The translations under genes were made by a program, and so were the position numbers. From NCBI RefSeq assembly GCF_003428645.1, contig NZ_QVQH01000007.1:1-64000 (forward strand): a stretch of 64,000 nt of DNA, written 5' to 3'. This document shows positions 16,177 to 60,460 of this stretch, in pieces. Source of the stretch: Geodermatophilus marinus. GTDB lineage: Bacteria > Actinomycetota > Actinomycetes > Mycobacteriales > Geodermatophilaceae. The notes beneath the pieces were generated by a model. It saw only the letters and a program-made list of their open reading frames with translations, had not been told where the DNA came from and searched no databases. How positions within the stretch are numbered: position 1 is the first letter of the stretch; every line of letters begins with the position of its first letter.

Positions 16177-17328
16177 ATGACCGCGCTGAGCGGCCAGGAG
16201 CAGGAGATGGTGGCCCTCACGGCCGCCTTCGTCGACGAGCGGGTGCGCCCGCGGGTCCGGGAGTTCGAGGCCGGTGACCACTACCCGGAGCCGCTGATCG
16301 AGGAGATGAAGGCCCTCGGCGTCTTCGGGCTGCTGGTGCCCGAGGAGCACGGCGGCAGCGCGGTCAGCACCGCCTGCTTCGCCCGGGTCACCGAGGAGCT
16401 GGCCCGCGGCTGGATGAGCCTGGCCGGCGCGATCGGCGGCCACTCGGTGATCGCGCACCTGCTGCGGACCTACGGGACGCCCGAGCAGCAGGCCGCCCAC
16501 CTGCCGCGGATGGCCGACGGGTCGCTGCGGGCCACCATGGCGCTCACCGAGCCCTCGGGCGGCAGCGACCTGCAGGCCATGCGGACCACCGCCCGGCTCG
16601 ACGGCGGCACCTACCGGGTCACCGGCAGCAAGACGTGGATCTCCAACGCCCAGCACGCCGGCCTGATCGGCCTGCTGTGCCGCACCGACCCCGACGCGGA
16701 CCCGCCGCACCGCGGGATGGGCGTGCTCCTCGTCGAGCCGGGGGAAGGACTCACCGTCGGCCCGAAGATCGACAAGCTCGGGTACCGGGGCGTCGAGGCC
16801 TGCGAGATCGTCTTCGACGACATGGCCGTGCCCGCCTCCGCGCTGCTCGGCGGCGAGCCCGGCCGCGGCTGGGTGCAGATGATGCGCGGCCTGGAGGTCG
16901 GCCGCATCCAGGTCGCCGCCCGCGCGGTCGGGGTGGCCCAGGCCGCGCTGGCCGCGGCCACCCGTTACGCCCAGGAGCGGGAGTCCTTCGGGCAGCCCAT
17001 CTGGCGGCACCAGTCGGTGGGCAACCTGCTCGCCGACATGGCCACGCGGGTGCAGGCCGCCCGGCTGCTCACCGCCGACGCCGCGCAGCGGCTCGACGCC
17101 GGGGGCCGCGCGGACATGGAGGCGGGCATGGCCAAGCTGTTCGCCTCCGAGACCGCCATGCAGGTCGCGCTCGACGCGATGCGCGTGCACGGCGGCTACG
17201 GCTACAGCCGCGAGTACGACGTGGAGCGCTATTTCCGCGACGCCCCGCTGATGATCCTCGGCGAGGGCACCAACGAGATCCAGCGCTCGGTCATCGCCGC
17301 CCAGTGGATCGCCCGGCACCGGGTCTGA
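16177..17328 (+). CDS. Acyl-CoA dehydrogenase
   Basis: 383 residues, a standard-length FAD-dependent acyl-CoA dehydrogenase. MALTEPSGGSDLQAM is the flavin/substrate signature. The C-terminal block HGGYGYSREYDVERYFRDA includes the Glu of REYDVER that is the usual catalytic base, followed by the FAD-contacting GEGTNEIQRS. It makes the trans-2-enoyl-CoA and passes electrons to ETF. Starts with ATG 16177 behind GGGAGG. It is convergent with the nitronate-monooxygenase-like gene, with a 38-bp overlap at the 3' ends. The acyl chain is unknown; a branched short chain is plausible. Confidence 0.95.
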   Translation: MTALSGQEQEMVALTAAFVDERVRPRVREFEAGDHYPEPLIEEMKALGVFGLLVPEEHGGSAVSTACFARVTEELARGWMSLAGAIGGHSVIAHLLRTYGTPEQQAAHLPRMADGSLRATMALTEPSGGSDLQAMRTTARLDGGTYRVTGSKTWISNAQHAGLIGLLCRTDPDADPPHRGMGVLLVEPGEGLTVGPKIDKLGYRGVEACEIVFDDMAVPASALLGGEPGRGWVQMMRGLEVGRIQVAARAVGVAQAALAAATRYAQERESFGQPIWRHQSVGNLLADMATRVQAARLLTADAAQRLDAGGRADMEAGMAKLFASETAMQVALDAMRVHGGYGYSREYDVERYFRDAPLMILGEGTNEIQRSVIAAQWIARHRV

Positions 17329-18283
17329 GCGCGGCCTCGGCGTGCGCCGCCAGGTCGGCGACCACCTCGGCGGCCGGCCGCACCGCGGTCACCCCGGCCA
17401 CGCCCGCACCGGCGTACAGGGCCATGGCCGCCACGTCGCCGGAGACGGCGGTCAGCGGCGGCAGCCCGGCGCCGGGCGGGAGCGGCACCTCGCGGCCGCC
17501 GGCGCTCAGCGTGCCGACGACGTCGCCGTCGAAGGAGCTGACCCGCGCGACGGCGCTGCTGAGCACCCGGGCCCGGGCGTTCGTCGCGCACAGCGGGCAC
17601 CCGGCGGCGAACGCGCCGGTCACCTCGGTGGTGCCGGGGCCGGCCTCGACCAGGGCCCGCTTGTACCCCGGGTGCGCCCCGGACTCCTCGGTCGCGACGA
17701 AGAGCGTGCCGATCCGGGCGCCGTCCGCGCCGTCGGCCAGCACCGCCGCCAGGGCCGGGCCCGAGGCGATCCCGCCGGCGGCCAGGACGGGGACGGGCAC
17801 CGCGCCGAGGACCTCGGCCAGCAGCGGGCGCAGCGGCCGCGAGCCCCGCACGTGCCCGCCCGCCTCCACCCCCTGGACGGCCACCACGTCGCAGCCGGCG
17901 TCCGCGGCCGCCCGGGCCTCGTCCGCCGAGCCGACCTGCCAGCTCGCCAGCGCGCCCGCGCCGTGCACCAGCTCCACCAGCCGGGGCCGCGGGTCCAGCC
18001 AGAAGAAGTCGACCAGCCGCACCCGCTCGGCGACCGCGACGACGAGGTCCTCGTCGACGTCCTCGGTGAGCACGTTGACCGCGAGCACCCCGGTGGTGCG
18101 CGCCCGGGCCTTCGCCACGGCGCGCAGGACCTGGTCGAGCTCCAGGCCGAGGGCCGACAGCGTGCCCACCGCGCCCGCCGACGCGACCGCCGCGGCCAGC
18201 GCCGGGGTGGAGACCGCGCCCATCGGCGCCTGCTGGACCGGGACCGTGCAGCCGGTCAGCTCCGTGAACCGGGTGGCGGTCAT
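17291..18283 (-). CDS. Nitronate monooxygenase-family flavoprotein (NPD-like)
   Basis: 330 residues, FMN-binding TIM barrel. VQQAPMGAVSTPALAAAVASAG at the N-terminus, CDVVAVQGVEAGGHVRG with the family His, and PVLAAGGIASGPALA are diagnostic. The family oxidises alkyl nitronates, but many actinobacterial members are enoyl reductases or of unknown role. ATG 18283 has GAGGAGG five bases upstream. Its neighbours on both sides are acyl-CoA enzymes, so a flavin-dependent 2-enoyl reductase or dehydrogenase role cannot be excluded. The 3' end overlaps the convergent acyl-CoA dehydrogenase. Confidence 0.88.
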   Translation of the reverse strand: MTATRFTELTGCTVPVQQAPMGAVSTPALAAAVASAGAVGTLSALGLELDQVLRAVAKARARTTGVLAVNVLTEDVDEDLVVAVAERVRLVDFFWLDPRPRLVELVHGAGALASWQVGSADEARAAADAGCDVVAVQGVEAGGHVRGSRPLRPLLAEVLGAVPVPVLAAGGIASGPALAAVLADGADGARIGTLFVATEESGAHPGYKRALVEAGPGTTEVTGAFAAGCPLCATNARARVLSSAVARVSSFDGDVVGTLSAGGREVPLPPGAGLPPLTAVSGDVAAMALYAGAGVAGVTAVRPAAEVVADLAAHAEAALRPGAGRSTGRR

Positions 18284-18360: not shown

Positions 18361-19728
18361 TCAGCCGGGCACGGCCAGGTGCCGCGGGTTGCCGATGGCC
18401 AGCCGGTCGCGCACCGCGGCCCGCACCACCCCGACCACCTCGTCGCGGCGGTCGTCGAGGGAGCCGTCGGTGATCGCCCGGGAGAGCGCCGCGTCGTCCG
18501 CGCAGCCCAGCGCGGCCAGCGCGGCCCGGTGCCGCTCCCGGGCGGCGGGGCCCAGCGCCAGCTCGCGCCGCACGGCGGCCAGCACGTTGCCGGCGACCCG
18601 GGCGTGGAACCCCGTGCGGCCCGGGGCGTGCGCGCGCACGTCGTCGTCCAGGTAGGCGGTCACCGCGGCGAGCAGCTCGGTCGCCGTCGGCCGGCCGGTG
18701 AGCAGCTCGTCGCCGGCCGGCGGCGGCGGGTCCGGCGGCGCCGCGCCGTCCGGGGCGTCCAGCCCGAGGGCGAGCAGCGCGTCGAACTCCTGCTCGCACG
18801 CCCGCCGGCCGATCGCGGCCAGCTCGACCGAGGGCTCGGCGCCCGACAGGTGCCGGCCGGCCATGACCCCGCACATCAGCCCCCACTGGACGGTGCCGTA
18901 GAGCTCCCACCAGTGCAGCTGCTCGAGGGTCGGCCGCCACCCGGCCACCGCGGCGTAGGCGTCCAGCAGCTCCTCCCGGGTGCCCACCCCACCGGCCGGC
19001 AGCGGCGAGCCGAAGCGCCAGACCTTCGCGCACAGCCAGCCGAGGTCCTCGACCGGGTCGCCGCGGTGCACCAGCTCCCAGTCCAGGACGGCGCGCAGCC
19101 CGTCGGGGCCGACCACGAGGTTGCCCAGCCGCAGGTCGCCGTGCACCAGCGCCTCGGGCGCCGGCGCCGGCCGCTCGTCGCGCAGCCGGCGCAGCGCCAG
19201 GGCCAGGCCCGGCGGGGGAGGGGAGTCCCCGCCGTAGGCGGTCAGCAGGCGCTCGAGCGGATCGGTGGGCGGCGCCACCGACGGCACCTCCGCCGCCGGG
19301 ACGGCGTGCAGCCGGGCCAGGGCCGCCGCCAGCTGCGCCACCAGCCCGGACCGGGCCGCGGCGAACCCGGGCTCGCGCAGCAGCCGGCGCGGGATCGTCT
19401 CGCCCTCCACCCGGTCCATGAGCAGGTAGCCGCGCCCCAGCGGTCCGCCGTCGTCCCCGAGGTCGACCACCTCCGGCACCGGCACCCCGGCCCGCGCCGC
19501 GGCCGCCATCGCCTCGGCCTCCACCGCCAGCGGCACCCCGCCGGTGCCCGCGCCGCTGCGCAGCACCAGATCCCGGCCGCCGCCGTCCGCGCCGACGGAG
19601 GTGAACGCCCAGGTCTCCCGGCTCGCGCCGCCGGAGAGGCGCGCCAGCCCCTCGACGCGCACCGGCGCACCGGCCAGCGCGGTCAGCCGCGCCGCGAGCC
19701 GGTCGGCGAGGGCGGCGTCCGGGGTCAC
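18361..19728 (-). CDS. APH-type kinase fused to LvaB/DUF6285-like domain (4-hydroxyacyl-CoA kinase candidate)
   Basis: 455 residues. Residues ~1-335 are an aminoglycoside-phosphotransferase fold: LSGGASRETWAF, the Brenner motif LVHGDLRLGNLVVG, and the metal-binding VLDWELVHRGDPVEDLGWL. Residues ~340-455 (from RPTATELLAAVTAYLDDDV through GNPRHLAV) resemble the small LvaB/DUF6285 protein. In Pseudomonas levulinate catabolism LvaA with LvaB phosphorylates 4-hydroxyvaleryl-CoA and LvaC removes the phosphate. Here LvaA and LvaB appear as one polypeptide. The GTG at 19728 overlaps the stop of the acyl-CoA dehydrogenase paralogue as GTGA, so the pair is coupled. The function is inferred from this architecture. 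Confidence 0.85.
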   Translation of the reverse strand: MTPDAALADRLAARLTALAGAPVRVEGLARLSGGASRETWAFTSVGADGGGRDLVLRSGAGTGGVPLAVEAEAMAAAARAGVPVPEVVDLGDDGGPLGRGYLLMDRVEGETIPRRLLREPGFAAARSGLVAQLAAALARLHAVPAAEVPSVAPPTDPLERLLTAYGGDSPPPPGLALALRRLRDERPAPAPEALVHGDLRLGNLVVGPDGLRAVLDWELVHRGDPVEDLGWLCAKVWRFGSPLPAGGVGTREELLDAYAAVAGWRPTLEQLHWWELYGTVQWGLMCGVMAGRHLSGAEPSVELAAIGRRACEQEFDALLALGLDAPDGAAPPDPPPPAGDELLTGRPTATELLAAVTAYLDDDVRAHAPGRTGFHARVAGNVLAAVRRELALGPAARERHRAALAALGCADDAALSRAITDGSLDDRRDEVVGVVRAAVRDRLAIGNPRHLAVPG

Positions 19729-20981
19729 CGGAGGAAGCCGAACAGCTGCCCGGCGACCCGGCGCATCTGGATCTCCTCGGCGCCCTCGGTGATCCGGTAG
19801 CGGCGGTGGTGCCGGTAGATGTGCTCGAAGGGCAGGTGGCGGCTGTAGCCCATCCCGCCGTGCACCTGCATGGCGCGGTCGGCCGCGTCGCAGACCAGCC
19901 GGTTGCCGCGGTAGTTGCACATCGACACCCGGTGGCCGATCGAGACGGCCGGCTCCCCGCGGGAGGTCAGCTCGTCGAGCTCGACCGCGGTCCGGCGGAT
20001 GAGCGTGCGCACCAGCTCCGCCTCGGTGTGCAGCTCGACCAGCGGCCACTGCACCGCCTGGCGCTCGGCGAGCGGCCGGCCGAAGGTGACCCGCTGCCGG
20101 GCGTGCGCCACCGAGCGGTCGATGCAGTACTGCGCCGCGCCGACCCCCGAAGCGGCCTGCCGGATGCGGTTCTCGTGCACGAAGGTCTGCGCGATCGCCA
20201 GCCCCTCGCCCTCGGCGCCCAGGATCGCCGCGTCGGGCACCCGGACCCCGTCGAGCACGACCTCGCCGTGGTCGGAGGGCATGTTCAGCGTCCACCAGAA
20301 GAACGGCACCGAGAAGCCGGGGGCGTCGGTGGGCACGAGGAACGCGGTGATGCCCCGGGCGTCCCCCGGCGAGCTGGAGGTGCGGGCGAACACCAGGTCG
20401 TGGGTGGCGGTGTGCACGCCGGTGTTCCACCGCTTGCGCCCGTCGACCACCCAGTCGCCGTCCCGCCGCACGGCGGTGGTCTCCAGCCACGTCGCGTCGC
20501 TGCCGTGGTCGGGCTCGGTGAGCCCGAAGGCCAGCCCGCGTGCGCCGGTGATCAGCGGCTCGACGAACTCCGCCCGCTGCTCGGGCGTGCCGAACAGGTG
20601 CAGCAGCTGGGGCATGACGAGGTTGCCGACGACGCTGTGCTCGTTCTGCAGGTCGTTGTGCAGGCCCAGGCCGCGGTGCGCCAGGTGCTCGCGGATGACG
20701 GCCATGTCCAGGTTGCCGCCGTCCCGGCCGCCGAGCTCGGCCGGCAGGGAGTACCGCAGCCACCCGGCCGCGTCGGCGCGCCGCCGCACCTCGGCCAGCA
20801 GCTCCTCCCACTCCCGGGCCGGGACGCCCCCGGCGTCCACGTCGGTGCGCGCGAACTCCCGCCGGTGGTCGAAGAAGCGGGCGTTGTCGTCCTGCTCGTG
20901 CAGCGGGTCGATCTCCTCGGCGACGAAGGTGTCGAGGTCGGACAGCAGCGCGGTCAGCCGCGGGGGGAGCGAGGGGTCCAC
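19725..20981 (-). CDS. Acyl-CoA dehydrogenase paralogue lacking catalytic Glu (LvaC/ACAD11-like)
   Basis: 418 residues with the full dehydrogenase fold: GLAFGLTEPDHGSDATWLET, WNTGVHTATHDLVFART, and HGGMGYSRHLPFEHIYRHHR near the end. The base found as Glu in REYDVER of the neighbour at 16177 is His here (SRHLPFEH). The same position is altered in mammalian ACAD10/11. Those enzymes, like LvaC, eliminate phosphate from 4-phosphoacyl-CoA instead of simply dehydrogenating. GTG 20981 is preceded by GAAGGA. It is co-translated with the kinase. Dephosphorylation to an enoyl-CoA is the preferred hypothesis. Confidence 0.88.
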   Translation of the reverse strand: MDPSLPPRLTALLSDLDTFVAEEIDPLHEQDDNARFFDHRREFARTDVDAGGVPAREWEELLAEVRRRADAAGWLRYSLPAELGGRDGGNLDMAVIREHLAHRGLGLHNDLQNEHSVVGNLVMPQLLHLFGTPEQRAEFVEPLITGARGLAFGLTEPDHGSDATWLETTAVRRDGDWVVDGRKRWNTGVHTATHDLVFARTSSSPGDARGITAFLVPTDAPGFSVPFFWWTLNMPSDHGEVVLDGVRVPDAAILGAEGEGLAIAQTFVHENRIRQAASGVGAAQYCIDRSVAHARQRVTFGRPLAERQAVQWPLVELHTEAELVRTLIRRTAVELDELTSRGEPAVSIGHRVSMCNYRGNRLVCDAADRAMQVHGGMGYSRHLPFEHIYRHHRRYRITEGAEEIQMRRVAGQLFGFLR

Positions 20982-21166: not shown

Positions 21167-22213
21167 GTGCGCATCGGGATGCGGGTCGGCTACAGCGGCG
21201 GGTTCCGGGAGGCGGCCGAGGAGCTGGCCGATCTCGAGAAGGCGGGCCTGGACATGGTCTCGATCGCCGAGGCGTACAGCTTCGACGCGGTCAGCCAGCT
21301 CGGCTACCTCGCCGCGGTCACCGACCGGCTCGAGCTCACCTCCGGGATCCTGCAGGCGTTCACCCGCACGCCCACGCTGACCGCGATGACCGCGGCGGGC
21401 CTCGACCACGTCTCCGGCGGCCGGTTCACCCTCGGCCTCGGTGCCTCCGGGCCCCAGGTCGTCGAGGGGTTCCACGGCGTCCCGTACGACGCCCCGCTGG
21501 GGCGCATCCGGGAGATCGTCGACATCTGCCGGATGGTGTGGCGGAGGGAGCGGGTCGAGTACCCCGGCCGGTACTACACGCTCCCCCTGCCCCCCGAGCA
21601 GGGCACGGGCCTCGGCAAGCCGCTCAAGCTGATCAACACCCCGGTGCGCGAGCGCATCCCGGTGACCCTGGCCGCCATCGGGCCGAGGAACGTCGAGCTC
21701 GCCGCCGAGATCGCCGAGGGGTGGGAGCCGATCTTCTTCCACCCCGGCCGGGCGGCCGAGACCTGGGGGGCGGCCCTCGCCGCCGGCCGGGCCAGGCGGG
21801 ACCCGGCGCTCGGGCCGCTCCAGGTGCTGGTCGGCGCGCCCTGCGCCGTGGGCGAGGGTCTCGAGGAGCTCCGCGACGCCGCCCGCCACCAGCTCGCCCT
21901 CTACATCGGCGGGATGGGTGCCCGCGGCAAGAACTTCTACAACGAGCTGACCGTGCGCTACGGCTTCCCGGAGGCCGCCGCGCGGGTGCAGGACCTCTAC
22001 CTGGACGGCCGCAAGGAGGAGGCGGCCGCGGCCGTGCCGCAGGAGCTGGTCGACGCGACCTCGCTCGTGGGCCCGGCCGGCTGGGTCGCCGAGCGCCTGG
22101 CGGCCATGGCCGAGGCCGGCGTGACCACCGTCGTCGCCCACCTCGTGCAGGCCGACCGGGAGGACCGGCTGCGCACGGTCGAGCAGCTGAAGAACCTGGC
22201 CGCGGACCTGTGA
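21167..22213 (+). CDS. LLM-class F420-dependent oxidoreductase
   Basis: 348 residues, luciferase-like TIM barrel. GMRVGYSGGFREAAEELADL, FTRTPTLTAMTAAGLDHVSGGRFTLGLGASGPQVVEGFHG and GRYYTLPLP match F420-dependent reductases such as the Rv/MSMEG 'TIGR03559-like' set. It probably uses F420 for hydride transfer on a keto, hydroxy or enoyl substrate. GTG 21167 follows GGAGGAGGGGAG. It is the first gene of an operon divergent from the kinase/LvaC-like pair, with GTGA overlap to the next crotonase gene, and may act on the same substrates. Confidence 0.9.
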   Translation: MRIGMRVGYSGGFREAAEELADLEKAGLDMVSIAEAYSFDAVSQLGYLAAVTDRLELTSGILQAFTRTPTLTAMTAAGLDHVSGGRFTLGLGASGPQVVEGFHGVPYDAPLGRIREIVDICRMVWRRERVEYPGRYYTLPLPPEQGTGLGKPLKLINTPVRERIPVTLAAIGPRNVELAAEIAEGWEPIFFHPGRAAETWGAALAAGRARRDPALGPLQVLVGAPCAVGEGLEELRDAARHQLALYIGGMGARGKNFYNELTVRYGFPEAAARVQDLYLDGRKEEAAAAVPQELVDATSLVGPAGWVAERLAAMAEAGVTTVVAHLVQADREDRLRTVEQLKNLAADL

Positions 22214-23016
22214 GCTCGAGCGGTGCCGGGGACCGGCCCGCCGACGGCGGGGGAGCGGTCCGGCTGACCCGGGACGGCCCCGTCGCCACCCTCACGCTGG
22301 CCAACCCGCGGCGGAAGAACGCCGTCGCGCGGTCCTCCTGGCGGCTGCTGCGCGCCGCGCTGGACGACGTGGTCGACGGCGGTGCCCGGGTCCTGGTCGT
22401 CACCGGCGCGGGCGAGGACTTCTGCGCGGGCGCCGACCTCTCCGACGCCGGGGCGGGGCGGCGGCCGCCGATGGTCGACATGGCCGAGGTCAACGCGGCC
22501 TGCCTCGCGCTGCACCGGCTGCCCGTCCCGACCGTCGCCCGCGTCGACGGGGTCGCCGTCGGCGCCGGGATGAACCTCGCCCTCGGGTGCGACTTCGTCG
22601 TCGCCTCGACCCGGGCCCGGTTCTCGGAGATCTTCGTCCGCCGCGGGCTGTCGGTCGACTTCGGCGGCTCCTGGCTGCTGCCCCGGCTCGTCGGCGCCCA
22701 CCGCGCCAAGGAGCTGGTGCTGCTCGGGGACGAGATCGGCGCCGAGCGGGCCCGGGAGTGGGGTTTGGTCCGGGAGGTCGTGGCCCCCGAGGAGCTCGAC
22801 GGGACCGTCGACCGGCTCGTCGCACGGCTGCTCGCCGGCCCCCCGGTCGCCATGCGGCTGTCCAAGCGGATGCTCGACGACGCCTGGGAGGTGTCCTTCG
22901 AGCGCGCCCTGGAGGACGAGGCCCGCGCCCAGCAGGTCAACTTCGGCACCGAGGACACCGCCGAGGCCGGCCGGGCCTTCCTCGAGAAGCGCGACCCCGT
23001 GTTCCGCGGGCGCTGA
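22210..23016 (+). CDS. Atypical enoyl-CoA hydratase/isomerase (crotonase family)
   Basis: 268 residues, crotonase fold. GAGEDFCAGADLSDA is the oxyanion-hole region and VDGVAVGAGMNLALGCDFVVAS the second. The two hydratase glutamates are absent: the first is Asn in GMNLALGCD, and the FxxPE position reads FSEIFVRRG. An Asp occurs in LSVDFGGSWLL, where isomerases such as PaaG have their acid/base. An enoyl-CoA isomerase or hydrolase reaction is therefore more likely than simple hydration. GTG 22210 overlaps the LLM stop by GTGA. Substrate unknown. Confidence 0.88.
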   Translation: MSSSGAGDRPADGGGAVRLTRDGPVATLTLANPRRKNAVARSSWRLLRAALDDVVDGGARVLVVTGAGEDFCAGADLSDAGAGRRPPMVDMAEVNAACLALHRLPVPTVARVDGVAVGAGMNLALGCDFVVASTRARFSEIFVRRGLSVDFGGSWLLPRLVGAHRAKELVLLGDEIGAERAREWGLVREVVAPEELDGTVDRLVARLLAGPPVAMRLSKRMLDDAWEVSFERALEDEARAQQVNFGTEDTAEAGRAFLEKRDPVFRGR

Positions 23017-23036: not shown

Positions 23037-23909
23037 ATGACGTCCCCCGAGCCCGGCGCCCCCGTGCCGGTGCCGGCACCCCTGCCCGCCGGTCTGCCGG
23101 CCGACCTCGGCACCCTCCGGCTGGCCGCCCCCGAGCCCGGCGTCCTGGTGCTCACCCTCGACCGGCCCGAGCGGCTCAACGCGATGTCGGCCGACCTGCT
23201 CCGCGAGCTGCACGCGGTGCTCGACGCGCTCGCCGACGACCCCTCCGTCCGCGTGCTCGTGCTCACCGGCGCCGGCCGCGGCTTCTGCGCCGGCCTGGAC
23301 CTCACCGCCTTCGACATGGGCGGCCCCGACCGGGCCACCCGGTCCCCGCAGGCCGGCCTGGCGCTGCAGAAGCACATCGCCGCGCTGGTGCCGAAACTGC
23401 GCGCGCTGCCGCAGGTGGTGATCGCCGCGGTCAACGGCCCTGCGGCCGGCGGCGGGCTGGCGCTGGCGCTGGCCGCGGACGTGCGGATCGGGGCGGCGTC
23501 GTCCCGCTACACCGTCGCCTTCGTGCGGCTGGGCCTCTCCGGCTGCGACATCGGGGTCAGCTGGCTGCTGCCCCGCCTGATCGGCGCCTCCCGCGCCTTC
23601 GAGCTGCTGCTCACCGGCCGGGTCGTCGACGCCCCCGAGGCCGACCGCATCGGCCTGGTCACCCGGGTGGTGCCCGACGAGGAGCTCCTCGACGCCGCCC
23701 TGGGCACCGCGCGGGCGGTGCTGGCCAACTCGCCGATGGGCGTGCGCATGACCAAGGAGGTCATGTGGAGCCAGCTGGAGGTGTCGAGCCTGCAGGCCGG
23801 CATCGACCTGGAGAACCGCACCCAGATCCTCAGCTCGTTCACCGGCGACCACCGGGAGGCCGCGCTGGCCTTCCGCGAGCGCCGGTCCCCGCACTTCCGC
23901 GACGCCTGA
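23037..23909 (+). CDS. Second atypical enoyl-CoA hydratase/isomerase
   Basis: 290 residues with a Pro-rich N-terminal extension of about 30 residues before the crotonase core. LTGAGRGFCAGLDLTAF and VNGPAAGGGLALALAADVRIG form the CoA/oxyanion site. As in the gene before it, the hydratase Glu pair is missing (GGLALALAAD; YTVAFVRLG) and the Asp of SGCDIGVSWLLPR is kept, favouring isomerase-type chemistry. ATG 23037 has CAGGAGG eight bases upstream. It lies 20 bp after the first crotonase and 11 bp before an acyl-CoA dehydrogenase. Confidence 0.9.
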   Translation: MTSPEPGAPVPVPAPLPAGLPADLGTLRLAAPEPGVLVLTLDRPERLNAMSADLLRELHAVLDALADDPSVRVLVLTGAGRGFCAGLDLTAFDMGGPDRATRSPQAGLALQKHIAALVPKLRALPQVVIAAVNGPAAGGGLALALAADVRIGAASSRYTVAFVRLGLSGCDIGVSWLLPRLIGASRAFELLLTGRVVDAPEADRIGLVTRVVPDEELLDAALGTARAVLANSPMGVRMTKEVMWSQLEVSSLQAGIDLENRTQILSSFTGDHREAALAFRERRSPHFRDA

Positions 23910-23920
23910 GAGGGGTGTCC

Positions 23921-25102
23921 GTGACCGACCGCGACCGCGTCGTCGAGACCGCCCGGAGCGTGGTGGCCGAGCACCCACCTGCCACCACCCCGCAGCGGGC
24001 GTTCCTCGGCGCCTGCTTCGACGCCGGCCTGGCCTGGGTGCACTTCCCGGAGGGCTTCGGCGGCCTCGGCGTCGCCCCCGGCCTCCAGGCCGTCGCCGAC
24101 GGCATCCTGCAGGGCGCCGGCGGCCCCAACCCCTTCTGGCTCAACCCGATGGGCTACGGCATGGCCGGCCCCACGGTGATGGCGCACGCCTCCCGCGAGC
24201 TGGCCGCGCAGCTGCTGCGCCCCGACTACGTCTGCGACGAGATCTGGTGCCAGCTGTTCAGCGAGCCCGGCGCGGGCTCCGACCTCGCCGGGCTGGCCAC
24301 CCGGGCCGTGCGCGACGGCGACACCTGGGTGGTCACCGGCCAGAAGGTGTGGACGTCGAACGCGCACAAGGCCCGCCGCGCGCTGCTGCTGGCCCGCACC
24401 GACCCCGACCAGCCCAAGCACCGCGGGCTGACCTACTTCGTGCTGGACATGACCGACCCCGGCGTCGAGGTCCGCCCGCTGCGCCAGATGACCGGTGAGG
24501 CCGAGTTCAACGAGGTGTACCTGCGGGAGGCGCGGATCCCCGACGCCCACCGCCTCGGCGAGGTCGGCCAGGGCTGGCACGTCGCCATGACCACGCTGAT
24601 GAACGAGCGGACGGCGATCGGCGGCGGCAGCAGCGTCCGCGGCAGCGGCAGCATCGGCACCGCGCTGCGGCTGTGGCGCGAGCGCCCGGACCTGCGCACC
24701 CCGGCGCTGCGCGAGCGCCTGGTGCACCTGTTCGCCCGGGCCGACGCCGCCCGGCTCACCGGCGACCGCCAGCGGGCCGAGGCCGGCGAGCGGATCGGCC
24801 CCGAGGGCAGCATCGGCAAGCTCGTCGGCGCCGAGCTCAACCAGGACGTCCACGAGTGGTGCATGGACGCCCTCGGCGTCGAGGCCACCCTCTACAGCGG
24901 CTACGAGCCCCGCCCCGACGGCTCGCCACCGCCGGTGGAGGGGGAGGACCGGCAGCGGATGTTCCTGCGCAGCCGGGCCAACACCATCGAGGGCGGCACC
25001 TCCGAGGTGCTGCGCACCATCCTCGGCGAGCGGCTGCTCGGCCTGCCCGGCGACCTGCGCGCCGACACCGGCCGGCCGTGGAGCGAGGTGCCGCGTGGCT
25101 GA
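23921..25102 (+). CDS. Acyl-CoA dehydrogenase, FadE type (heterotetramer subunit candidate)
   Basis: 393 residues. WCQLFSEPGAGSDLAGLATR and WVVTGQKVWTSNAHKARRAL form the flavin and substrate sites; LRSRANTIEGGTSEVLRTIL is the late FAD-contacting block. It lacks the HGG-x-GF/YxxE segment carrying the usual base, as seen in one partner of the alpha2-beta2 enzymes used for steroid and bile side chains in actinobacteria. The partner would be the dehydrogenase at 25874. GTG 23921 is 11 bp after the crotonase stop; GAGAGGGG lies upstream. The SDR start lies inside its 3' end. Confidence 0.92.
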   Translation: MTDRDRVVETARSVVAEHPPATTPQRAFLGACFDAGLAWVHFPEGFGGLGVAPGLQAVADGILQGAGGPNPFWLNPMGYGMAGPTVMAHASRELAAQLLRPDYVCDEIWCQLFSEPGAGSDLAGLATRAVRDGDTWVVTGQKVWTSNAHKARRALLLARTDPDQPKHRGLTYFVLDMTDPGVEVRPLRQMTGEAEFNEVYLREARIPDAHRLGEVGQGWHVAMTTLMNERTAIGGGSSVRGSGSIGTALRLWRERPDLRTPALRERLVHLFARADAARLTGDRQRAEAGERIGPEGSIGKLVGAELNQDVHEWCMDALGVEATLYSGYEPRPDGSPPPVEGEDRQRMFLRSRANTIEGGTSEVLRTILGERLLGLPGDLRADTGRPWSEVPRG

Positions 25103-25874
25103 GGCGGGGGCCGGCGCGGCCCTGGCCGGGCGGGTCGCCCTGGTCACCGGCGGCGGCCGGGGCATCGGCGCGGCGATCAGCACCGAGCTGGCGCTGGCCG
25201 GCGCCGCCGTCGTCCTGACCTACCGGCGGGACGCCGACGCCGCGGCCGCGCTGGTCGACGAGCTGACCGGCGAGGGCGCCCGGGCGCACGCCGTCGAGGC
25301 GCACGTCGAGGACCCCGCCTCCTCGGAGCGGGCGGTCCAGGCCGCCGTCGAGCGCTTCGGTGCGCTCGACGTGCTGGTGAGCAACGCCGGGGTCGCCAGC
25401 CGCGGGAACCCGGTGGCGGCCACGACGCACGAGGAGCTGTCGTGGGTGCTGGCGGTGCACGCGCTCGGCCCGCACCAGCTGGTGCGGGCGGCGCTGCCGC
25501 ACCTGCGCCGGCAGCCCCGCTCCGACGTCGTGTTCATCAGCAGCATCGCCGCCTCCACCTGGACACCGGGCGGTGCCCCGTACGCCATGGGCAAGGCGGC
25601 GGTCGAGGCGCTCGCGCACACCCTGGCCCGCGAGGAGCGCCGCGCCGGCGTGCGCGTCAACGTCGTCGCCCCCGGGCTCACCGACACCGAGATGGGCCGC
25701 CGGCTGGCCCGCGCCACCCGCAGCGTCGAGGACATCCACGAGCTCGACACCTCCTCGCCGTTCGGCCGGGTCTGCGCCCCCGAGGACGTCGCCCGGGTGG
25801 TGCGGTTCCTCGTCGGGCCCGAGGGCGGCTACGTGAACGACCAGCGGATCGTCGTCGACGGAGGGACCTTCTGA
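25095..25874 (+). CDS. Short-chain dehydrogenase (3-hydroxyacyl-CoA dehydrogenase-like)
   Basis: 259 residues of a classical SDR. VALVTGGGRGIGAAIS is the cofactor loop, VLVSNAGVA the structural motif, and Ser of FISSIAAS with YAMGK supplies the catalytic residues. NVVAPGLTDTEMG follows. It starts with GTG eight bases inside the preceding dehydrogenase gene, and its stop overlaps the next ATG (TGATG), so all three are translationally coupled. The likely role is the hydroxyacyl-CoA oxidation step of this beta-oxidation-like pathway; NAD or NADP preference is not clear. Confidence 0.92.
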   Translation: MAEAGAGAALAGRVALVTGGGRGIGAAISTELALAGAAVVLTYRRDADAAAALVDELTGEGARAHAVEAHVEDPASSERAVQAAVERFGALDVLVSNAGVASRGNPVAATTHEELSWVLAVHALGPHQLVRAALPHLRRQPRSDVVFISSIAASTWTPGGAPYAMGKAAVEALAHTLAREERRAGVRVNVVAPGLTDTEMGRRLARATRSVEDIHELDTSSPFGRVCAPEDVARVVRFLVGPEGGYVNDQRIVVDGGTF

Positions 25875-27016
25875 TGGTCGAGTTCGAGTTCACCCCCGAG
25901 CAGCGCGACCTGCGCGCGGTCGCCCGGGAGTTCTGCACCGAGCGGTTCGCCGGGCCCGAGGTGCGCCGGCTGGTGGAGACCCCCGACGGCTTCGACCGGG
26001 AGGTCTGGCGCCGGCTGGGCCGCGACGTCGGGCTGCTCGGCCTGGCGCTGCCCGAGGAGCTCGGCGGGGCCGGCGCCGGCCTGGTCGACCTCGCGCTGGT
26101 CGCCGAGGAGTTCGGCCGGGCCGTCGCCCCGGCACCGTTGGTCGGCACGGTCGCGCTGGCGGCGACGGCGCTGCGGCTGGCCGGCGACGACGGCACCGCC
26201 GAGGAGCTGCTGCCGGCGATCGCCGAGGGCGAGGCCGTCGTCGCGCTCGCCGCCACGGACGACCGCGGCGCGTGGGCACCGGCCCAGCCGACCGTGCGGG
26301 CCACCCGCACCGACTCCGGCTGGCGGCTGACCGGCGAGCAGGCGCACGTGCTCGACGGCGCCGCCGCGGACGCCGTGCTGGTGCTCGCCACCACGGAGAC
26401 CGGCACCGGCCTGTTCGCCGTCGACGGGGCGGCCGACGGCCTCACCCGCGAACCCCTGTCGGTGCTGGACCTGACCCGCCGGCTGGCGCGGCTGCGCTAC
26501 GCCGACGTCCCCGCGCGGGCGGTGGGGGAGCCCGGGCAGGCCGCCACCGCGGTCGCCGGGGCGCGCGACGTCGCCGCCGTCGTCCTGGCCGCCGAGGCGG
26601 TCGGCGGCGCCCAGCGGCTGCTGGACATGTCGGTGGAGTACGCCAGGACCCGGCTGCAGTTCGGCCGGGCGATCGGCTCCTTCCAGGCGGTCAAGCACCG
26701 CTGCGCGGACATGCTGGTCGACGTCGAGCACGCCCGGTCGGTCGCCTACCACGCCGCCTGGGCGCAGGACGCGGGCACGGACGACCCCCGGGTCGCCGCC
26801 GACCTGGCCACGACGGTCACGGCCGAGGCCTACCTGCGCGTCGCGAAGAACACCGTCCAGGTGCACGGCGGCATCGGCTTCACCTGGGAGCACCCCACCC
26901 ACCTGTACTACAAGCGCGCCGTCGGGGACGCCGCACTGCTCGGCGGCCGCGCCGCGGCCGCCGAGCGGCTCGCCGCGGCCGTGCTCGACGGCCCCGCGCT
27001 CGGCGGGGTGGCGTGA
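25874..27016 (+). CDS. Acyl-CoA dehydrogenase, partner of the 23921 gene
   Basis: 380 residues. FEFTPEQRDLRAVAREFC at the N-terminus, a shortened central beta domain with little of the usual TEPxxGSD motif, and the C-terminal NTVQVHGGIGFTWEHPTHLYYKRA. That last block carries the Glu expected to act as base. The degenerate central FAD site together with an intact C-terminal site complements the 23921 protein, the pattern of heterotetrameric FadE pairs. The ATG overlaps the SDR stop. It is the last gene of the operon; the TetR gene follows after 178 bp. Confidence 0.92.
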   Translation: MVEFEFTPEQRDLRAVAREFCTERFAGPEVRRLVETPDGFDREVWRRLGRDVGLLGLALPEELGGAGAGLVDLALVAEEFGRAVAPAPLVGTVALAATALRLAGDDGTAEELLPAIAEGEAVVALAATDDRGAWAPAQPTVRATRTDSGWRLTGEQAHVLDGAAADAVLVLATTETGTGLFAVDGAADGLTREPLSVLDLTRRLARLRYADVPARAVGEPGQAATAVAGARDVAAVVLAAEAVGGAQRLLDMSVEYARTRLQFGRAIGSFQAVKHRCADMLVDVEHARSVAYHAAWAQDAGTDDPRVAADLATTVTAEAYLRVAKNTVQVHGGIGFTWEHPTHLYYKRAVGDAALLGGRAAAAERLAAAVLDGPALGGVA

Positions 27017-28181: not shown

Positions 28182-31100
28182 ATGCCCGCCGACCTGCACG
28201 TCCCCGTCCACCCCGTCCGGTTCGTCACCGCGGCCAGCCTGTTCGACGGGCACGACGCGGCCATCAACGTGATGCGGCGGCTGCTGCAGAGCCAGGGTGC
28301 GGAGGTGGTGCACCTCGGGCACGACCGCAGCGTGGACACCGTCGTCCGCGCCGCGCTGGAGGAGGACGTGCAGGGGGTGGCCATCTCCTCCTACCAGGGC
28401 GGCCACGTCGAGTACTTCAGCTACCTGGTCGAGCGGCTGGCGCAGGCCGGCGCCGGCCACGTCAAGGTCTTCGGGGGCGGCGGCGGGGTGATCGTGCCCG
28501 AGGAGATCGCGCTGCTGCGCGAGCGCGGCGTGCGCATCTTCAGCCCCGAGGACGGCCAGCGGCTCGGCCTGCCCGGGATGATCAACGAGCTGATCCGGGA
28601 GTGCGACGTCGACCTGGCCGCGCAGGGTCCGGACGTCGACGCCCTGCGCACCGGCGACCCGGCGGCGCTGGCCCGCACGATCTCGGTGCTGGAGACCGGC
28701 CGCGACGAGGAGCTCGCCGCCCGGGTGCGCGAGGCCGCCGCCGGCCGGACCGTGCCGGTGCTGGGCATCACCGGCACCGGCGGGTCGGGCAAGTCCTCGC
28801 TCACCGACGAGCTGCTGCGCCGGCTGCGGACCGACCAGGAGGACAAGCTGCGGGTCGCCGTCCTGGCGATCGACCCGACCCGCCGCCGCGGCGGGGGCGC
28901 GCTGCTCGGCGACCGGATCCGGATGAACGCGCTGGAGACCGGCGAGGGGTCGCACACCTTCTTCCGGTCGATGGCCACCCGCTCGGCCGGCGCGGAGACG
29001 CCTGCGCACCTCGAGGACGTCCTCGCCGCGGTGAAGGCCGCCGGCTTCGACCTCGTCATCGTGGAGACGCCGGGCATCGGGCAGGGCGACGCCGGCATCG
29101 TGCCGTTCTCCGACGTGTCGCTGTACGTGATGACGCCGGAGTTCGGTGCCGCCTCGCAGCTGGAGAAGATCGACATGCTCGACTTCGCCGACGCGGTCGC
29201 GGTCAACAAGTTCGAGCGGCGCGGTGCCGAGGACGCCCGCCGGGACGTCGCCCGGCAGATGGTGCGCAACCGCGAGGCGTTCGGGCAGCCCTGGGAGGAG
29301 ATGCCGGTCTTCGGCACCAGCGCCGCCCGGTTCAACGACGACGGGGTCACCGCGCTCTACCACCACCTGCTCGGGCTGCTCACCGAGCAGGGGCTGCCAG
29401 CCGGCACCGGCGTCCTGCCGCGGGTCGACACCCGCACCTCCACCGGGCTGGCCAGCGTGGTGCCCTCGCAGCGCTCCCGGTACCTGGCCGAGATCTCCGA
29501 GGCGGTGCGCGCCTACCACGCCGAGACCGAGGCGCAGGCGGCCGTCGTCCGCCGGCGCCAGCACCTGCGCACCGCCGCCGAGGTGCTCGAGGGGGAGCCG
29601 TCCGAGGCCGCCGCCGCGGCGGCGGAGGCCGCCGACGCCGAGCTGTCACCGGGAGTCCGCGCGCTGCTGGAGGAGTGGCCGGCCCGCGTCCAGGACTACT
29701 CCGGCGACGAGCACGTCTACACCGTGCGCGGGCGGGAGATCCACGTCCCGCTGACCCGGGAGACGCTGTCGGGCACCAAGGTGCGCCGGGTGGCGCTGCC
29801 GCGCACGAGGGATGAGGCGGAGCTGCTGGGCTTCCTGCGGCGGGAGAACCTGCCCGGCGCCTTCCCGTTCACCGCCGGGGTCTTCCCGTTCAAGCGCTCC
29901 GGCGAGGCCCCGGCCCGGATGTTCGCCGGCGAGGGCGACGCGTTCCGCACCAACCGCCGGTTCAAGCTCCTCTCCGCCGGCAACGAGGCCACCCGGCTGT
30001 CGACGGCGTTCGACTCGGTCACCCTCTACGGGCGCGACCCCGACCCGCGCCCGGACGTCTACGGCAAGGTCGGCACGTCGGGGGTCTCGATCGCCACGCT
30101 CGACGACATGGAGGTCCTCTACTCCGGTTTCGACCTGTGCAGCCCGACCACGTCGGTGTCGATGACCATCAACGGCCCGGCGCCGGCGATCCTGGCGATG
30201 TTCCTCAACACCGCGATCGACCAGCAGCTCGACCGGTTCCGGGAGGACGAGGGCCGGGAGCCCGACGCCGCCGAGGCCGAGGAGATCCGCGCCCGGGTGC
30301 TGACGACCGTCCGGGGCACGGTGCAGGCCGACATCCTCAAGGAGGACCAGGGCCAGAACACCTGCATCTTCTCCACCGAGTTCGCGCTGCGCTGCATGGC
30401 CGACATCCAGGAGTGGTTCATCGAGCACGGCGTCCGGAACTTCTACTCGGTGTCGATCTCCGGCTACCACATCGCCGAGGCCGGGGCGAACCCGATCAGC
30501 CAGCTGGCGTTCACGCTGGCCAACGGCTTCACCTACGTGGAGTCCTACCTGGCCCGCGGCATGGACATCGACGACTTCGCGCCGAACCTGTCGTTCTTCT
30601 TCTCCAACGGCATGGACGCCGAGTACTCGGTGATCGGCCGGGTGGCCCGCCGCATCTGGGCCGTCGCCATGCGCGAGAAGTACGGCGCCAACGCCCGCTC
30701 GCAGCAGCTGAAGTACCACGTGCAGACCTCGGGCCGCTCCCTGCACGCCCAGGAGATGGACTTCAACGACATCCGCACCACGCTGCAGGCGCTGTGCGCC
30801 ATCTACGACAACGCCAACAGCCTGCACACCAACGCCTACGACGAGGCGGTGACCACCCCCTCGACGCACTCGGTGCGCCGGGCGCTGGCCATCCAGATGA
30901 TCATCGACAAGGAGTGGGGGCTGGCCGGCAACGAGAACCCGCTGCAGGGCTCGTTCGTCGTCGACGAGCTCACCGACCTGGTCGAGGAGGCGGTGCTGGC
31001 CGAGTTCGACCGCATCGCCGAGCGCGGCGGCGTGCTGGGCGCCATGGAGACCGGCTACCAGCGCGGCAAGATCCAGGACGAGTCGATGCTCTACGAGCAC

Positions 31101-31415
31101 CGCAAGCACGACGGCAGCCTGCCGATCGTCGGCGTGAACACCTTCCTCGACCCGCACGCCGGCGAGGAGGCCCCGAAGACGCTCGAGCTCGCCCGCGCCA
31201 CCGAGGCGGAGAAGCAGTCGCAGCTGCAGCGGCTGGCCGACTTCCACGCCCGGCACGCCGACGAGGCGCCCGCGGCGCTGGCCCGCCTCCAGCAGGTCGC
31301 CATGGACGGCGGCAACGTCTTCGCCGCCCTGATGGACGCCGTCCGGGCCTGCTCGCTGGGGCAGATCTCCGACGCCTTCTTCGAGGTGGGCGGCCAGTAC
31401 CGCCGCAACGTGTGA
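28182..31415 (+). CDS. icmF: Fused isobutyryl-CoA mutase (IcmF), B12-dependent
   Basis: 1077 residues with the IcmF domain order. (1) B12-binding Rossmann domain, residues ~10-145, with FDGHDAAINV: H24 is the expected lower cobalt ligand. (2) MeaB-like chaperone GTPase, ~180-420, P-loop GITGTGGSGKSS near 194. (3) Mutase TIM barrel, ~555-1077, with FTAGVFPFKRSGEAPARMF and SVSISGYHIAEAGANP. The mutase interconverts isobutyryl-CoA and n-butyryl-CoA, and in some members isovaleryl- and pivalyl-CoA, using adenosylcobalamin; the GTPase repairs the cofactor. ATG 28182 has GAGGAG upstream. It would feed branched products of the nearby acyl-CoA operon into beta-oxidation. Confidence 0.95.
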   Translation: MPADLHVPVHPVRFVTAASLFDGHDAAINVMRRLLQSQGAEVVHLGHDRSVDTVVRAALEEDVQGVAISSYQGGHVEYFSYLVERLAQAGAGHVKVFGGGGGVIVPEEIALLRERGVRIFSPEDGQRLGLPGMINELIRECDVDLAAQGPDVDALRTGDPAALARTISVLETGRDEELAARVREAAAGRTVPVLGITGTGGSGKSSLTDELLRRLRTDQEDKLRVAVLAIDPTRRRGGGALLGDRIRMNALETGEGSHTFFRSMATRSAGAETPAHLEDVLAAVKAAGFDLVIVETPGIGQGDAGIVPFSDVSLYVMTPEFGAASQLEKIDMLDFADAVAVNKFERRGAEDARRDVARQMVRNREAFGQPWEEMPVFGTSAARFNDDGVTALYHHLLGLLTEQGLPAGTGVLPRVDTRTSTGLASVVPSQRSRYLAEISEAVRAYHAETEAQAAVVRRRQHLRTAAEVLEGEPSEAAAAAAEAADAELSPGVRALLEEWPARVQDYSGDEHVYTVRGREIHVPLTRETLSGTKVRRVALPRTRDEAELLGFLRRENLPGAFPFTAGVFPFKRSGEAPARMFAGEGDAFRTNRRFKLLSAGNEATRLSTAFDSVTLYGRDPDPRPDVYGKVGTSGVSIATLDDMEVLYSGFDLCSPTTSVSMTINGPAPAILAMFLNTAIDQQLDRFREDEGREPDAAEAEEIRARVLTTVRGTVQADILKEDQGQNTCIFSTEFALRCMADIQEWFIEHGVRNFYSVSISGYHIAEAGANPISQLAFTLANGFTYVESYLARGMDIDDFAPNLSFFFSNGMDAEYSVIGRVARRIWAVAMREKYGANARSQQLKYHVQTSGRSLHAQEMDFNDIRTTLQALCAIYDNANSLHTNAYDEAVTTPSTHSVRRALAIQMIIDKEWGLAGNENPLQGSFVVDELTDLVEEAVLAEFDRIAERGGVLGAMETGYQRGKIQDESMLYEHRKHDGSLPIVGVNTFLDPHAGEEAPKTLELARATEAEKQSQLQRLADFHARHADEAPAALARLQQVAMDGGNVFAALMDAVRACSLGQISDAFFEVGGQYRRNV

Positions 31416-57200: not shown

Positions 57201-58859
57201 TCACACCGGCCCGCCGACGTTGTCCGGGCGGGCGGCGCCGGCCAGCTGCTCCAGCGCCAGCTCGCGGATGCGGAACCGCTGCAGCTTGCCGGTCGCCGTG
57301 GTGGGCAGCTCGTCGAACAGCAGCACGTGCCGGGGCCGCTTGAAGGCGGCCAGCCCCTCGCGGCAGAAGGCGACGAGGTCCGCGTTGGTCGCCGTCCCGC
57401 CGGGGCCGAGGACGACGCAGGCCACCGGTTTGTCCAGCCCGTCGGCGTCCGGCAGGGAGACCACGACCACCTGGGCGACGTCGGGGTGCTGGCGCAGCCG
57501 CTCCTCCACCTCGGTCGGGGAGACCCAGATGCCGCCGGCCTTGATGATGTCGTCGGTGCGGCCCAGCGAGGTGTAGTAGCCGTCGGGGCTGCGCACGTAG
57601 GTGTCGCCGGTGCGCACCCACTCGCCCTGGAACACCCGGCGGGTCACGGCACTGCGCTGCCAGTAGCCGGTCGCCGCGGAGCTGCCCTTGACGTACAGGT
57701 GGCCGGGGGTGCCGTCGAGGACGGGCACGCCGTCGTCGTCGACGATCCGCGCCTCGTACCCGGCGACGATCTCGCCGGTGGCGCCGGCGCGGGTGCGACC
57801 CGGCCGGCCGCTGATGAAGATGTGCAGCATCTCGGTGGAACCGATGCCGTCGAGCATCTCCACGCCGAAGCGGCCGGTGAACCGCTCGAACAGCGCGGCG
57901 GGGAACGCCTCGCCGGCCGACACGCAGGCCCGCACGGGGGCGAACGCGTCCTCGGGCAGGCCGGCGGCCAGCAGGGCGGCGTAGAAGGTCGGCCCCCCGA
58001 AGAACAGCGTCGGCCGCAGCTCCTGCAGCACCCGCAGGGTGCCGGCCGGGCTGGGCCGGGAGCGGTCGAGGACCGTGCTCGCCCCGACCGAGAACGGGAA
58101 GGTGAGGGTGTTGCCGAGGCCGTAGGCGAAGAAGAACTTCGCCACCGAGAAGGTGACGTCGTCGGGGCCGATGGCCAGCACGTCGCGGGCGTAGGTCTCC
58201 GCGGTGTCGCGCAGCGAGCCGTGCCGGTGCATCGCGCCCTTGGGCGTGCCCGTGGTGCCGGAGGTGTAGAGCCAGAACGCCGGCGAGTCGGCGACCGTCG
58301 GGTAGGGCTCGGCGACGGCGTCCCGCGCGCCGGCCCCGGCGGCGAGGAAGTCCGCCCACGACCGCACGCGCGTCCCCGCGACGTCCGGCAGCGGGCCGTC
58401 GGTGAGGACGACGACGTCGGCGAGGTCGCGCAGCCCGCCGACGGCCGGCGCCAGGTCGGTGAACTCCGCCGACAGGGCGACCAGGCGGGCCCGGCTGTCG
58501 GCGGCCAGCACCGCGAGGTCCCGGGGCTTGAGCATGGTGCTCACCGGCACCGGGACCGCACCGATCCACAGCCCGGCGAGGAAGGCGGTCACCAGCTCGG
58601 GGGTGTCGCCCATGCACAGCAGCAGCCGCTCCTCGGGCCGGACCCCGGCGGCGACCAGCGCCGCGGCGCACGCGGTGACGGCTGCGTCGAGCTCGCCGTA
58701 GCCGAGCGTGCGGACGCTGCCGTCGAGGTCGATCGCGGTGATCGCCCGGCGGTCGGGGTCCGCCCGCGCGTGCCGGGTGACCAGCCACTCGGCGGCGTTG
58801 AACGGCTCGGCCGACGGCGGGGTCGGCGCCGGGGGTGCGACGGTGTCGAGGGTGGCCAC
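57201..58859 (-). CDS. Benzoate-CoA ligase family protein
   Basis: 552 residues of the ANL superfamily. Motifs: FWLYTSGTTGTPKGAMHRHG (ATP loop), FSVAKFFFAYGLGNTLTFPF, MLDGIGSTEMLHIFISGRPG (typical of benzoate-CoA ligases), DDIIKAGGIWVSPTEVE, and ATGKLQRFRIRE with the catalytic Lys. The Ala/Tyr-Gly-Leu-Gly segment lines the benzoate pocket. It makes benzoyl-CoA from benzoate, ATP and CoA for BoxB and BoxC upstream. GTG 58859 lies 117 bp after boxB, with a repeat element between. Confidence 0.93.
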   Translation of the reverse strand: MATLDTVAPPAPTPPSAEPFNAAEWLVTRHARADPDRRAITAIDLDGSVRTLGYGELDAAVTACAAALVAAGVRPEERLLLCMGDTPELVTAFLAGLWIGAVPVPVSTMLKPRDLAVLAADSRARLVALSAEFTDLAPAVGGLRDLADVVVLTDGPLPDVAGTRVRSWADFLAAGAGARDAVAEPYPTVADSPAFWLYTSGTTGTPKGAMHRHGSLRDTAETYARDVLAIGPDDVTFSVAKFFFAYGLGNTLTFPFSVGASTVLDRSRPSPAGTLRVLQELRPTLFFGGPTFYAALLAAGLPEDAFAPVRACVSAGEAFPAALFERFTGRFGVEMLDGIGSTEMLHIFISGRPGRTRAGATGEIVAGYEARIVDDDGVPVLDGTPGHLYVKGSSAATGYWQRSAVTRRVFQGEWVRTGDTYVRSPDGYYTSLGRTDDIIKAGGIWVSPTEVEERLRQHPDVAQVVVVSLPDADGLDKPVACVVLGPGGTATNADLVAFCREGLAAFKRPRHVLLFDELPTTATGKLQRFRIRELALEQLAGAARPDNVGGPV

Positions 58860-58886
58860 GCTGCTCAGCCCTTCCGGTGACGTGCG

Positions 58887-58937
58887 GGAACCGGCCCCCG
58901 TCCAGGGGCCCTGGAACCGGCCCCCGTCCAGGGGCCC
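58887..58937. repeat. Tandem duplication of 26-bp GC hairpin unit
   Basis: Two adjacent copies of a 26-bp unit starting GGAACCGGCCCCCGTCC (58887 and 58913), differing only in the last base. Each contains GGCCCC/GGGGCC and can fold. The second copy merges into the intercistronic repeat at 58918-58979. Confidence 0.8.
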
Positions 58938-58979
58938 GCCCTGAGCTTGCGAAGGGTGGGGAGGACGGGGGTCCTCTCA
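58918..58979 (-). repeat. Intercistronic repeat, copy 2
   Basis: Immediately downstream of boxB; it includes the stop codon at its end. Plus-strand sequence starts CGGCCCCCGTCCAGGGGC and ends GAGGACGGGGGTCCTCTCA. It matches the copy at 3365-3424 over the full length with scattered substitutions, and the complement of 31433-31492. Confidence 0.75.
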
Positions 58980-60458: not shown

Positions 60459-60460
60459 GC

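Follow-up and report, generated by a model that had tools for sequence, protein, structure and literature searches.

A kinase-LvaB fusion paired with an apparently undescribed sister family of LvaC/ACAD10/11 in Geodermatophilus marinus: a putative module for hydroxyacyl-CoA deoxygenation

A gene pair with overlapping ends

The window analyzed here is a stretch of 64,000 nucleotides from Geodermatophilus marinus (contig NZ_QVQH01000007.1). On its reverse strand we found two genes with a start/stop overlap. The upstream gene (19725..20981, reverse strand) encodes a protein of 418 aa with the acyl-CoA dehydrogenase (ACAD) fold and the N, M and C domains of ACADs in Pfam, which we call ACADx. The downstream gene (18361..19728, reverse strand) encodes a LvaA-type, APH-fold kinase of 455 aa with a fused LvaB/DUF6285 domain (PF01636 and PF19802). 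Both genes start with GTG, and codon-position composition confirmed the coding frame of each. The first-pass annotation of this DNA had described a GTGA overlap between the kinase and an acyl-CoA dehydrogenase, and the gene ends bear this out: the TGA stop codon of ACADx occupies positions 19727-19725 and the GTG start codon of the kinase positions 19728-19726, with four bases in common across the overlap (19725..19728, reverse strand). Since the two genes overlap in this way, their translation is implied to be coupled.

The kinase is fused to a DUF6285 domain

It had also been claimed that the kinase ends in a domain resembling LvaB/DUF6285, and hence that LvaA and LvaB are fused here. Profile searches confirmed both points, with residues 29-263 matching PF01636 (APH; E 8.5e-34) and residues 367-449 matching PF19802 (DUF6285; E 2.2e-22, 80 bits against a cut-off of 28.1) in a single 455-aa chain. 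The fused copy is the only DUF6285 in the whole genome. We take LvaB itself to be a member of DUF6285; our literature search on the family, in a limited collection, found no paper. In the AlphaFold2 model of the fusion (mean pLDDT 88.6) a low-confidence linker at about residues 321-350 leads to a well predicted helical C-terminal domain, with helices at residues 349-365, 370-406, 412-421 and 429-446; the domain as a whole spans about residues 346-450 (18379..18693, reverse strand).

The catalytic centre of the kinase is intact (H196-G197-D198, N203 and D216-W217-E218), and its motifs are kept across the 20 fused homologues aligned, save for HND in place of HGD in two of them. By sequence the kinase is nearest to ACAD11 and to 3dxp, the latter a kinase that was deposited under the name of a putative acyl-CoA dehydrogenase, and not to aminoglycoside kinases. 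In the phylogenetic tree it falls among other fused kinases, in a clade of 19 rows with an SH-aLRT of 99, and branches with other DUF6285-associated kinases, apart from the DUF6285-free kinases that adjoin bacterial ACAD11-like genes. The kinase-LvaB fusion is real, and it is recurrent in actinobacteria.

ACADx retains a catalytic glutamate

The first-pass annotation regarded the dehydrogenase as base-less, with the His of a SRHLPF motif standing where the catalytic Glu belongs. This proved to be the wrong alignment position. The His in question, H382, aligns with a non-catalytic E in the ..S/TREYPVE.. motif of other ACADs, and two of 14 aligned relatives have Y or A there, so it is not strictly conserved. 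The catalytic acid of this region of ACADs sits in a ..xEG.. motif, and in ACADx it is E399, 17 residues past H382, within RYRITEGAEEIQ. In alignments with solved ACADs, E399 coincides with the Glu of the EG motif; in that with LvaC/ACAD11-type proteins, it coincides with the catalytic Asp of R-L-A-D-G-P-D-E-V-H, which corresponds to D753 of ACAD11. Since E399 falls on the EG Glu and is invariant in two sets of aligned relatives (14 and 31), ACADx does have its base. Together with the R631-equivalent Arg (R272), this Glu is a canonical ACAD feature. 8v3v, a second PDB chain of ACAD11, carries N instead of D at the D753 position, which fits the inactive mutant described for ACAD11 (PMC12440821).

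ACADx as a sister group of the LvaC/ACAD10/11 clade

For phosphate elimination ACAD11 depends on D753 as its base and on R626, H634 and R637 to handle the phosphate, and elimination activity suffered most when three of these four residues were changed to Ala or Leu (PMC12440821). In our alignment R, H, R and D occupy the four positions in 11 of 11 LvaC/ACAD11-type rows, and ACADx has F267, Q275, S278 and E399 instead, each invariant in 12 ACADx rows; the HCMR motif that holds H634 and R637 is thereby absent. With all four residues replaced, ACADx is not a simple LvaC orthologue. A His near the FAD is shared: H238 of ACADx is equivalent to H597 of ACAD11, in a column whose placement depends on gaps, and it occurs in all ACADx and all Asp-type rows and in none of 42 other ACADs.

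A tree including these 42 ACADs, many of them from the same genome, placed ACADx as sister to the Asp clade of LvaC and ACAD10/11 (bootstrap/SH-aLRT 98/85), outside the clade and not within it, and both are nested in a node with support of 99/98. The best query TM-score of the ACADx model among the 50 structures listed (0.84) was with 4hr3 from Mycobacterium abscessus, whose sequence is of the LvaC/ACAD11 type. The ACADx signature, PFEHIYRHHRRYRITEG, is near-identical from Actinomycetota to haloarchaea. On these comparisons ACADx represents a large family, sister to LvaC/ACAD10/11 and apparently not described before. The first-pass annotation had interpreted the locus as a split ACAD10/11 system; the coupling of a kinase to an ACAD stands, and the assignment of ACADx to the LvaC/ACAD10/11 type does not, as the sister family lacks the phosphate-binding residues and the Asp.

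Distribution of ACADx and its link to the kinase

We found the ACADx signature in at least 588 species of bacteria and haloarchaea, with representatives in Actinomycetota (including mycobacteria), Alphaproteobacteria, Chloroflexota, Acidobacteriota and other groups, the haloarchaea being represented through plasmids. A kinase and DUF6285 lie within about 3.5 kb of ACADx at 50 of 84 loci, a set biased to the nearest relatives of the window, fused in 14 cases and as separate genes in 36; at five further loci of the 84 a fused kinase lies at a distance of 3.6-6.3 kb. Among 61 related genomes, ACADx is present in 13 and kinase-DUF6285 is adjacent to it in every one, with kinase-DUF6285 found in just one other genome (G343). 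The co-occurrence is strong (Fisher p 2e-12, in genomes that are not independent), and on this ground we rejected chance adjacency of the two genes. Where ACADx has no adjacent DUF6285, the domain is encoded elsewhere in 13 of 15 genomes, compared with 26 of 297 genomes in a phylum sample (Fisher p 2e-11, the samples being unlike in taxonomic make-up). In haloarchaea ACADx adjoins a kinase and a small helical protein in the place of LvaB; we rejected this protein as a DUF6285 member, since it has no Pfam match and a weak profile match to the family. ACADx is tightly tied to kinases of the LvaA/B type.

The exception among the relatives is informative. G343 (locus L088) encodes a fused kinase-LvaB of the same clade as that of the window (SH-aLRT 99) in a genome without ACADx, and next to its kinase stands an LvaC-type ACAD in which RLGPGRIFHAMR and YDGPDEVH supply all four ACAD11 residues. 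This one clear partner swap is our strongest indication that LvaC-type enzymes and ACADx serve the same kinase product.

Gene neighbourhood

Several genes near the pair are possible partners. Directly downstream lies a gene for a nitronate-monooxygenase-family flavoprotein (17291..18283, reverse strand; PF03060, E 1.5e-43). On the forward strand we found a divergent LLM-class F420-dependent oxidoreductase of the TIGR03559 (Rv3520c) type (21167..22213; 489.6 bits against a cut-off of 335), two Pfam members of the enoyl-CoA hydratase/isomerase family (22210..23016 and 23037..23909), and the two halves of a heteromeric-type ACAD pair, one pimC-like (23915..25102; Pfam and NCBIfam) and the other pimD/IpdE2-like (25874..27016; Pfam, NCBIfam and tree). 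A SDR gene also flanks the module in the window.

Parts of this neighbourhood recur. In 6 of 8 genomes of the same family, a TIGR03559-type F420 enzyme is encoded no more than 10 kb from the module, and the pimC-like ACAD subfamily occurs near ACADx and the kinase at loci L090, L117, L122, L127, L132 and L149. The ACAD-pair subfamilies of the window, together with crotonases and a FadD, accompany the module in Prauserella alba (L149) and in Sulfitobacter (L117); in the latter the genes of the module are separate, and a thiolase and an NMO gene belong to the cluster too. ACADx is missing from a Variovorax cluster that has kinase-DUF6285 together with FadD, a crotonase and the ACAD pair. This recurrence suggests a common catabolic route, perhaps for branched or alicyclic acids that a heteromeric ACAD pair would handle. 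Across the 61 relatives the F420 and IpdE2-like genes did not closely follow the distribution of the module, and because of this unevenness no fixed pathway partner can be named. The proposal that the F420 enzyme and the crotonases act on the same substrates as the pair gains a little support from synteny.

Proposed reaction

We lean towards a reading in which an acyl-CoA loses its gamma-hydroxyl through the action of the pair, by way of a phosphoacyl-CoA; ACADx would be a second ACAD that eliminates phosphate, built differently from the known type. A role in phosphoacyl-CoA chemistry is suggested by the fusion of APH and DUF6285, by the resemblance of the kinase to ACAD11 and by its linkage to ACADx. 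That ACADx would be the eliminating enzyme is suggested by the swap in G343, by its sister position in the tree, by the His equivalent to H597 and by its likeness to 4hr3. Overall, the two genes would form a deoxygenation module that readies a hydroxylated acyl-CoA for beta-oxidation.

In the first step the kinase would use ATP to phosphorylate the hydroxyl of the acyl-CoA, probably at C4, with the fused domain serving as a permanent, built-in LvaB partner. In P. putida, LvaA and LvaB act jointly on 4-hydroxyvaleryl-CoA (PMC6692424). Homology to LvaA/LvaB and to ACAD11, together with the intact kinase motifs, makes this step well supported as a prediction. The second step, less certain for ACADx, would have E399 abstract the alpha proton of the phosphoacyl-CoA against FAD, and phosphate would be expelled to give an enoyl-CoA; FAD would presumably shuttle a hydride, as proposed for ACAD10/11. 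The phosphate would have to be held otherwise than in LvaC/ACAD10/11, and candidates are the invariant R274, on the helix that bears the ACAD11 pocket, and the basic stretch R390-HHRRYR-396, which precedes the catalytic Glu. The general idea of ATP-dependent hydroxyl removal before beta-oxidation, already put forward in the first-pass annotation, remains the one that best accounts for the fusion, the adjacency and the co-occurrence, although not in the form of a simple split ACAD10/11; nothing specific supports 4-hydroxyvalerate as the substrate.

A wider proposal is more tentative, and we hold it at slightly less than even: ACADx may be a second, hitherto undescribed family of phosphoacyl-CoA-eliminating ACADs in bacteria and haloarchaea, with a Glu base and a charge arrangement unlike that of ACAD10/11, and the phosphorylate-and-eliminate route would then be far wider than the Asp/HCMR signature suggests.

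Alternative explanations

The most serious alternative, though an unlikely one in our judgement, makes ACADx a true FAD-dependent dehydrogenase or reductase, placed before or after the kinase in the same pathway, and leaves phosphate elimination to another ACAD of the same genome. Such an enzyme is at hand: a LvaC/ACAD11 orthologue on contig C36 (G000:C36:12966-14159; 66% identity to the G334 query protein) keeps HHCMR and the catalytic Asp (DGPDAVH), and could carry out the second step in trans. It probably forms the canonical 4-hydroxyacyl-CoA system with a DUF6285-free kinase on another contig (C33:24412-25308). A true LvaC/ACAD11-type ACAD was likewise present in every genome with ACADx, kinase and DUF6285 that we checked, which leaves unsupported the notion of ACADx as a stand-in for a missing LvaC. 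Both types occur together in the Sulfitobacter cluster, where they may have different jobs. The canonical Glu of ACADx, and the absence of every ACAD11 residue for phosphate elimination and thereby of the known phosphate pocket, would also fit an ordinary dehydrogenase. Against this, G343 has an LvaC-type ACAD where ACADx stands in the window, beside a similar fused kinase, and ACADx is sister to LvaC/ACAD10/11 and not to ordinary dehydrogenases. Moreover, ACADx keeps company with the kinase, but most related genomes that lack the kinase have the LvaC-type gene too.

Phosphate elimination by ACADx from a CoA ester also has to be weighed against a route in which the kinase acts on a non-CoA alcohol, for instance a tertiary alcohol of a terpenoid or sterol side chain, and the phosphoester yields an alkene before CoA activation. 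We consider this improbable. In fold the kinase model does match 25-hydroxysteroid kinase best (9fsg; E 1.3e-12), and the nearby IpdE2-like ACADs and Rv3520c-type F420 enzyme are reminiscent of steroid clusters; the match is, however, generic to the kinase superfamily (20% identity, TM 0.56), with 3dxp almost as near, and with DUF6285/LvaB and an ACAD as its partners the kinase is more likely to use an acyl-CoA. In addition, 25-hydroxysteroid kinase was reported without a candidate lyase gene in its vicinity (PMC8449060).

Finally, an antibiotic-modifying APH beside an unrelated fatty-acid dehydrogenase by chance is barely credible: the kinase belongs to the APH Pfam family, but its best score with NCBIfam resistance models (APH(3'), 40.9 bits against a cut-off of 205) is far under the cut-off, as are all others, and its closeness to 3dxp and ACAD11, its DUF6285 fusion and its linkage to ACADx across phyla led us to reject this function.

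Significance and comparison with known systems

The redox-neutral expulsion of phosphate by ACAD10/11 and LvaC has, to our knowledge, an unresolved mechanism. ACADx, which is linked to the same kinases and lacks the four residues essential in ACAD11, offers a natural experiment on it. If our proposal is true, HHRRYRITEG would be a signature for hydroxy-acid deoxygenation in actinobacteria, alphaproteobacteria, Chloroflexota, Acidobacteriota and haloarchaea, in genes now annotated merely as "acyl-CoA dehydrogenase" and "phosphotransferase", and DUF6285 would gain a context.

Among known systems, 25-hydroxysteroid kinase of Sterolibacterium denitrificans resembles the kinase of the window in fold and in a scheme of phosphorylation followed by phosphate elimination, but it acts on a free sterol alcohol and has no reported ACAD partner. 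The organism's own second system differs from the pair in that the C36 orthologue keeps HHCMR and DGPDAVH and the C33 kinase has no fused DUF6285. An operon on Thermus thermophilus pTT27 (ACAD, kinase, DUF6285 and histidine phosphatase) has the same order of ACAD, kinase and DUF6285; its genes are separate, and its ACAD has HCMR and the Asp (YDGPSEVH). The levulinate pathway of P. putida similarly groups an APH-type kinase (LvaA), a DUF6285/LvaB-type protein (LvaB) and an ACAD-fold partner (LvaC). In contrast to it, we identified no LvaD or LvaE neighbours at the module, LvaA and LvaB are fused in the window, and ACADx lacks the LvaC-type Asp and phosphate pocket. Mammalian ACAD10 and ACAD11 also couple a kinase to an ACAD, in one chain rather than through overlapping genes; the kinase of the window belongs instead to the DUF6285-associated branch, and ACADx, with D753, R626, H634 and R637 all replaced, is sister to the family of their ACAD domain.

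Gene neighbourhood of ACADx and the kinase-DUF6285 fusion

The window encodes a heteromeric-type pair of acyl-CoA dehydrogenases (ACADs), pimC-like and pimD/IpdE2-like (23915-25102 and 25874-27016). Pairs of this kind were found in two phyla near ACADx, the ACAD-fold family sister to LvaC/ACAD10/11, or near kinase-DUF6285, the LvaA-type kinase with its LvaB-like part, fused or separate (loci L084, L090, L117, L122, L127, L132 and L149); this recurrence suggests a common pathway. Several pimC/pimD-like ACADs also cluster on contig C6 of the G. marinus genome (32922-38392 and 80709-94955), possibly forming a degradation cluster for a steroid or cyclic acid. The window also encodes IcmF, a fused isobutyryl-CoA mutase/GTPase (28182-31415; 1919.5 bits, cut-off 1500), and a Box pathway for benzoate (57201-62197) with a benzoate-CoA ligase family member, BoxB (764.8 bits against a cut-off of 499) and BoxC (909.1 against 712).

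Downstream of some ACADx genes lie an ACAD pair and a kinase that lacks DUF6285 and is of the type associated with ACAD11 (L127:9888-11333, L132:9525-11291), so that one ACAD occurs with a second type of kinase. At two haloarchaeal ACADx loci (L119:6343-7882, L120:9285-10822), a small helical protein of 157-159 aa, whose gene overlaps the kinase gene, occupies the place of LvaB; it belongs to no Pfam family and matches the DUF6285 profile only weakly.

Relation to LvaC/ACAD11-type systems

Outside the window, the G. marinus genome encodes a separate LvaC/ACAD11-type ACAD with the motifs HHCMR and DGPDAVH (contig C36, 12966-14159; L109:9949-11199, minus strand). A kinase lacking DUF6285, encoded on a different contig (C33, 24412-25308; L104), clusters with kinases adjoining bacterial ACAD11-like genes. 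On plasmid pTT27 of Thermus thermophilus HB8, the genes for an LvaC-type ACAD, a kinase, a DUF6285 protein and a histidine phosphatase form one operon (L118:5265-8392); a histidine-phosphatase gene is likewise reported to adjoin lvaA in Pseudomonas citronellolis (PMC6692424).
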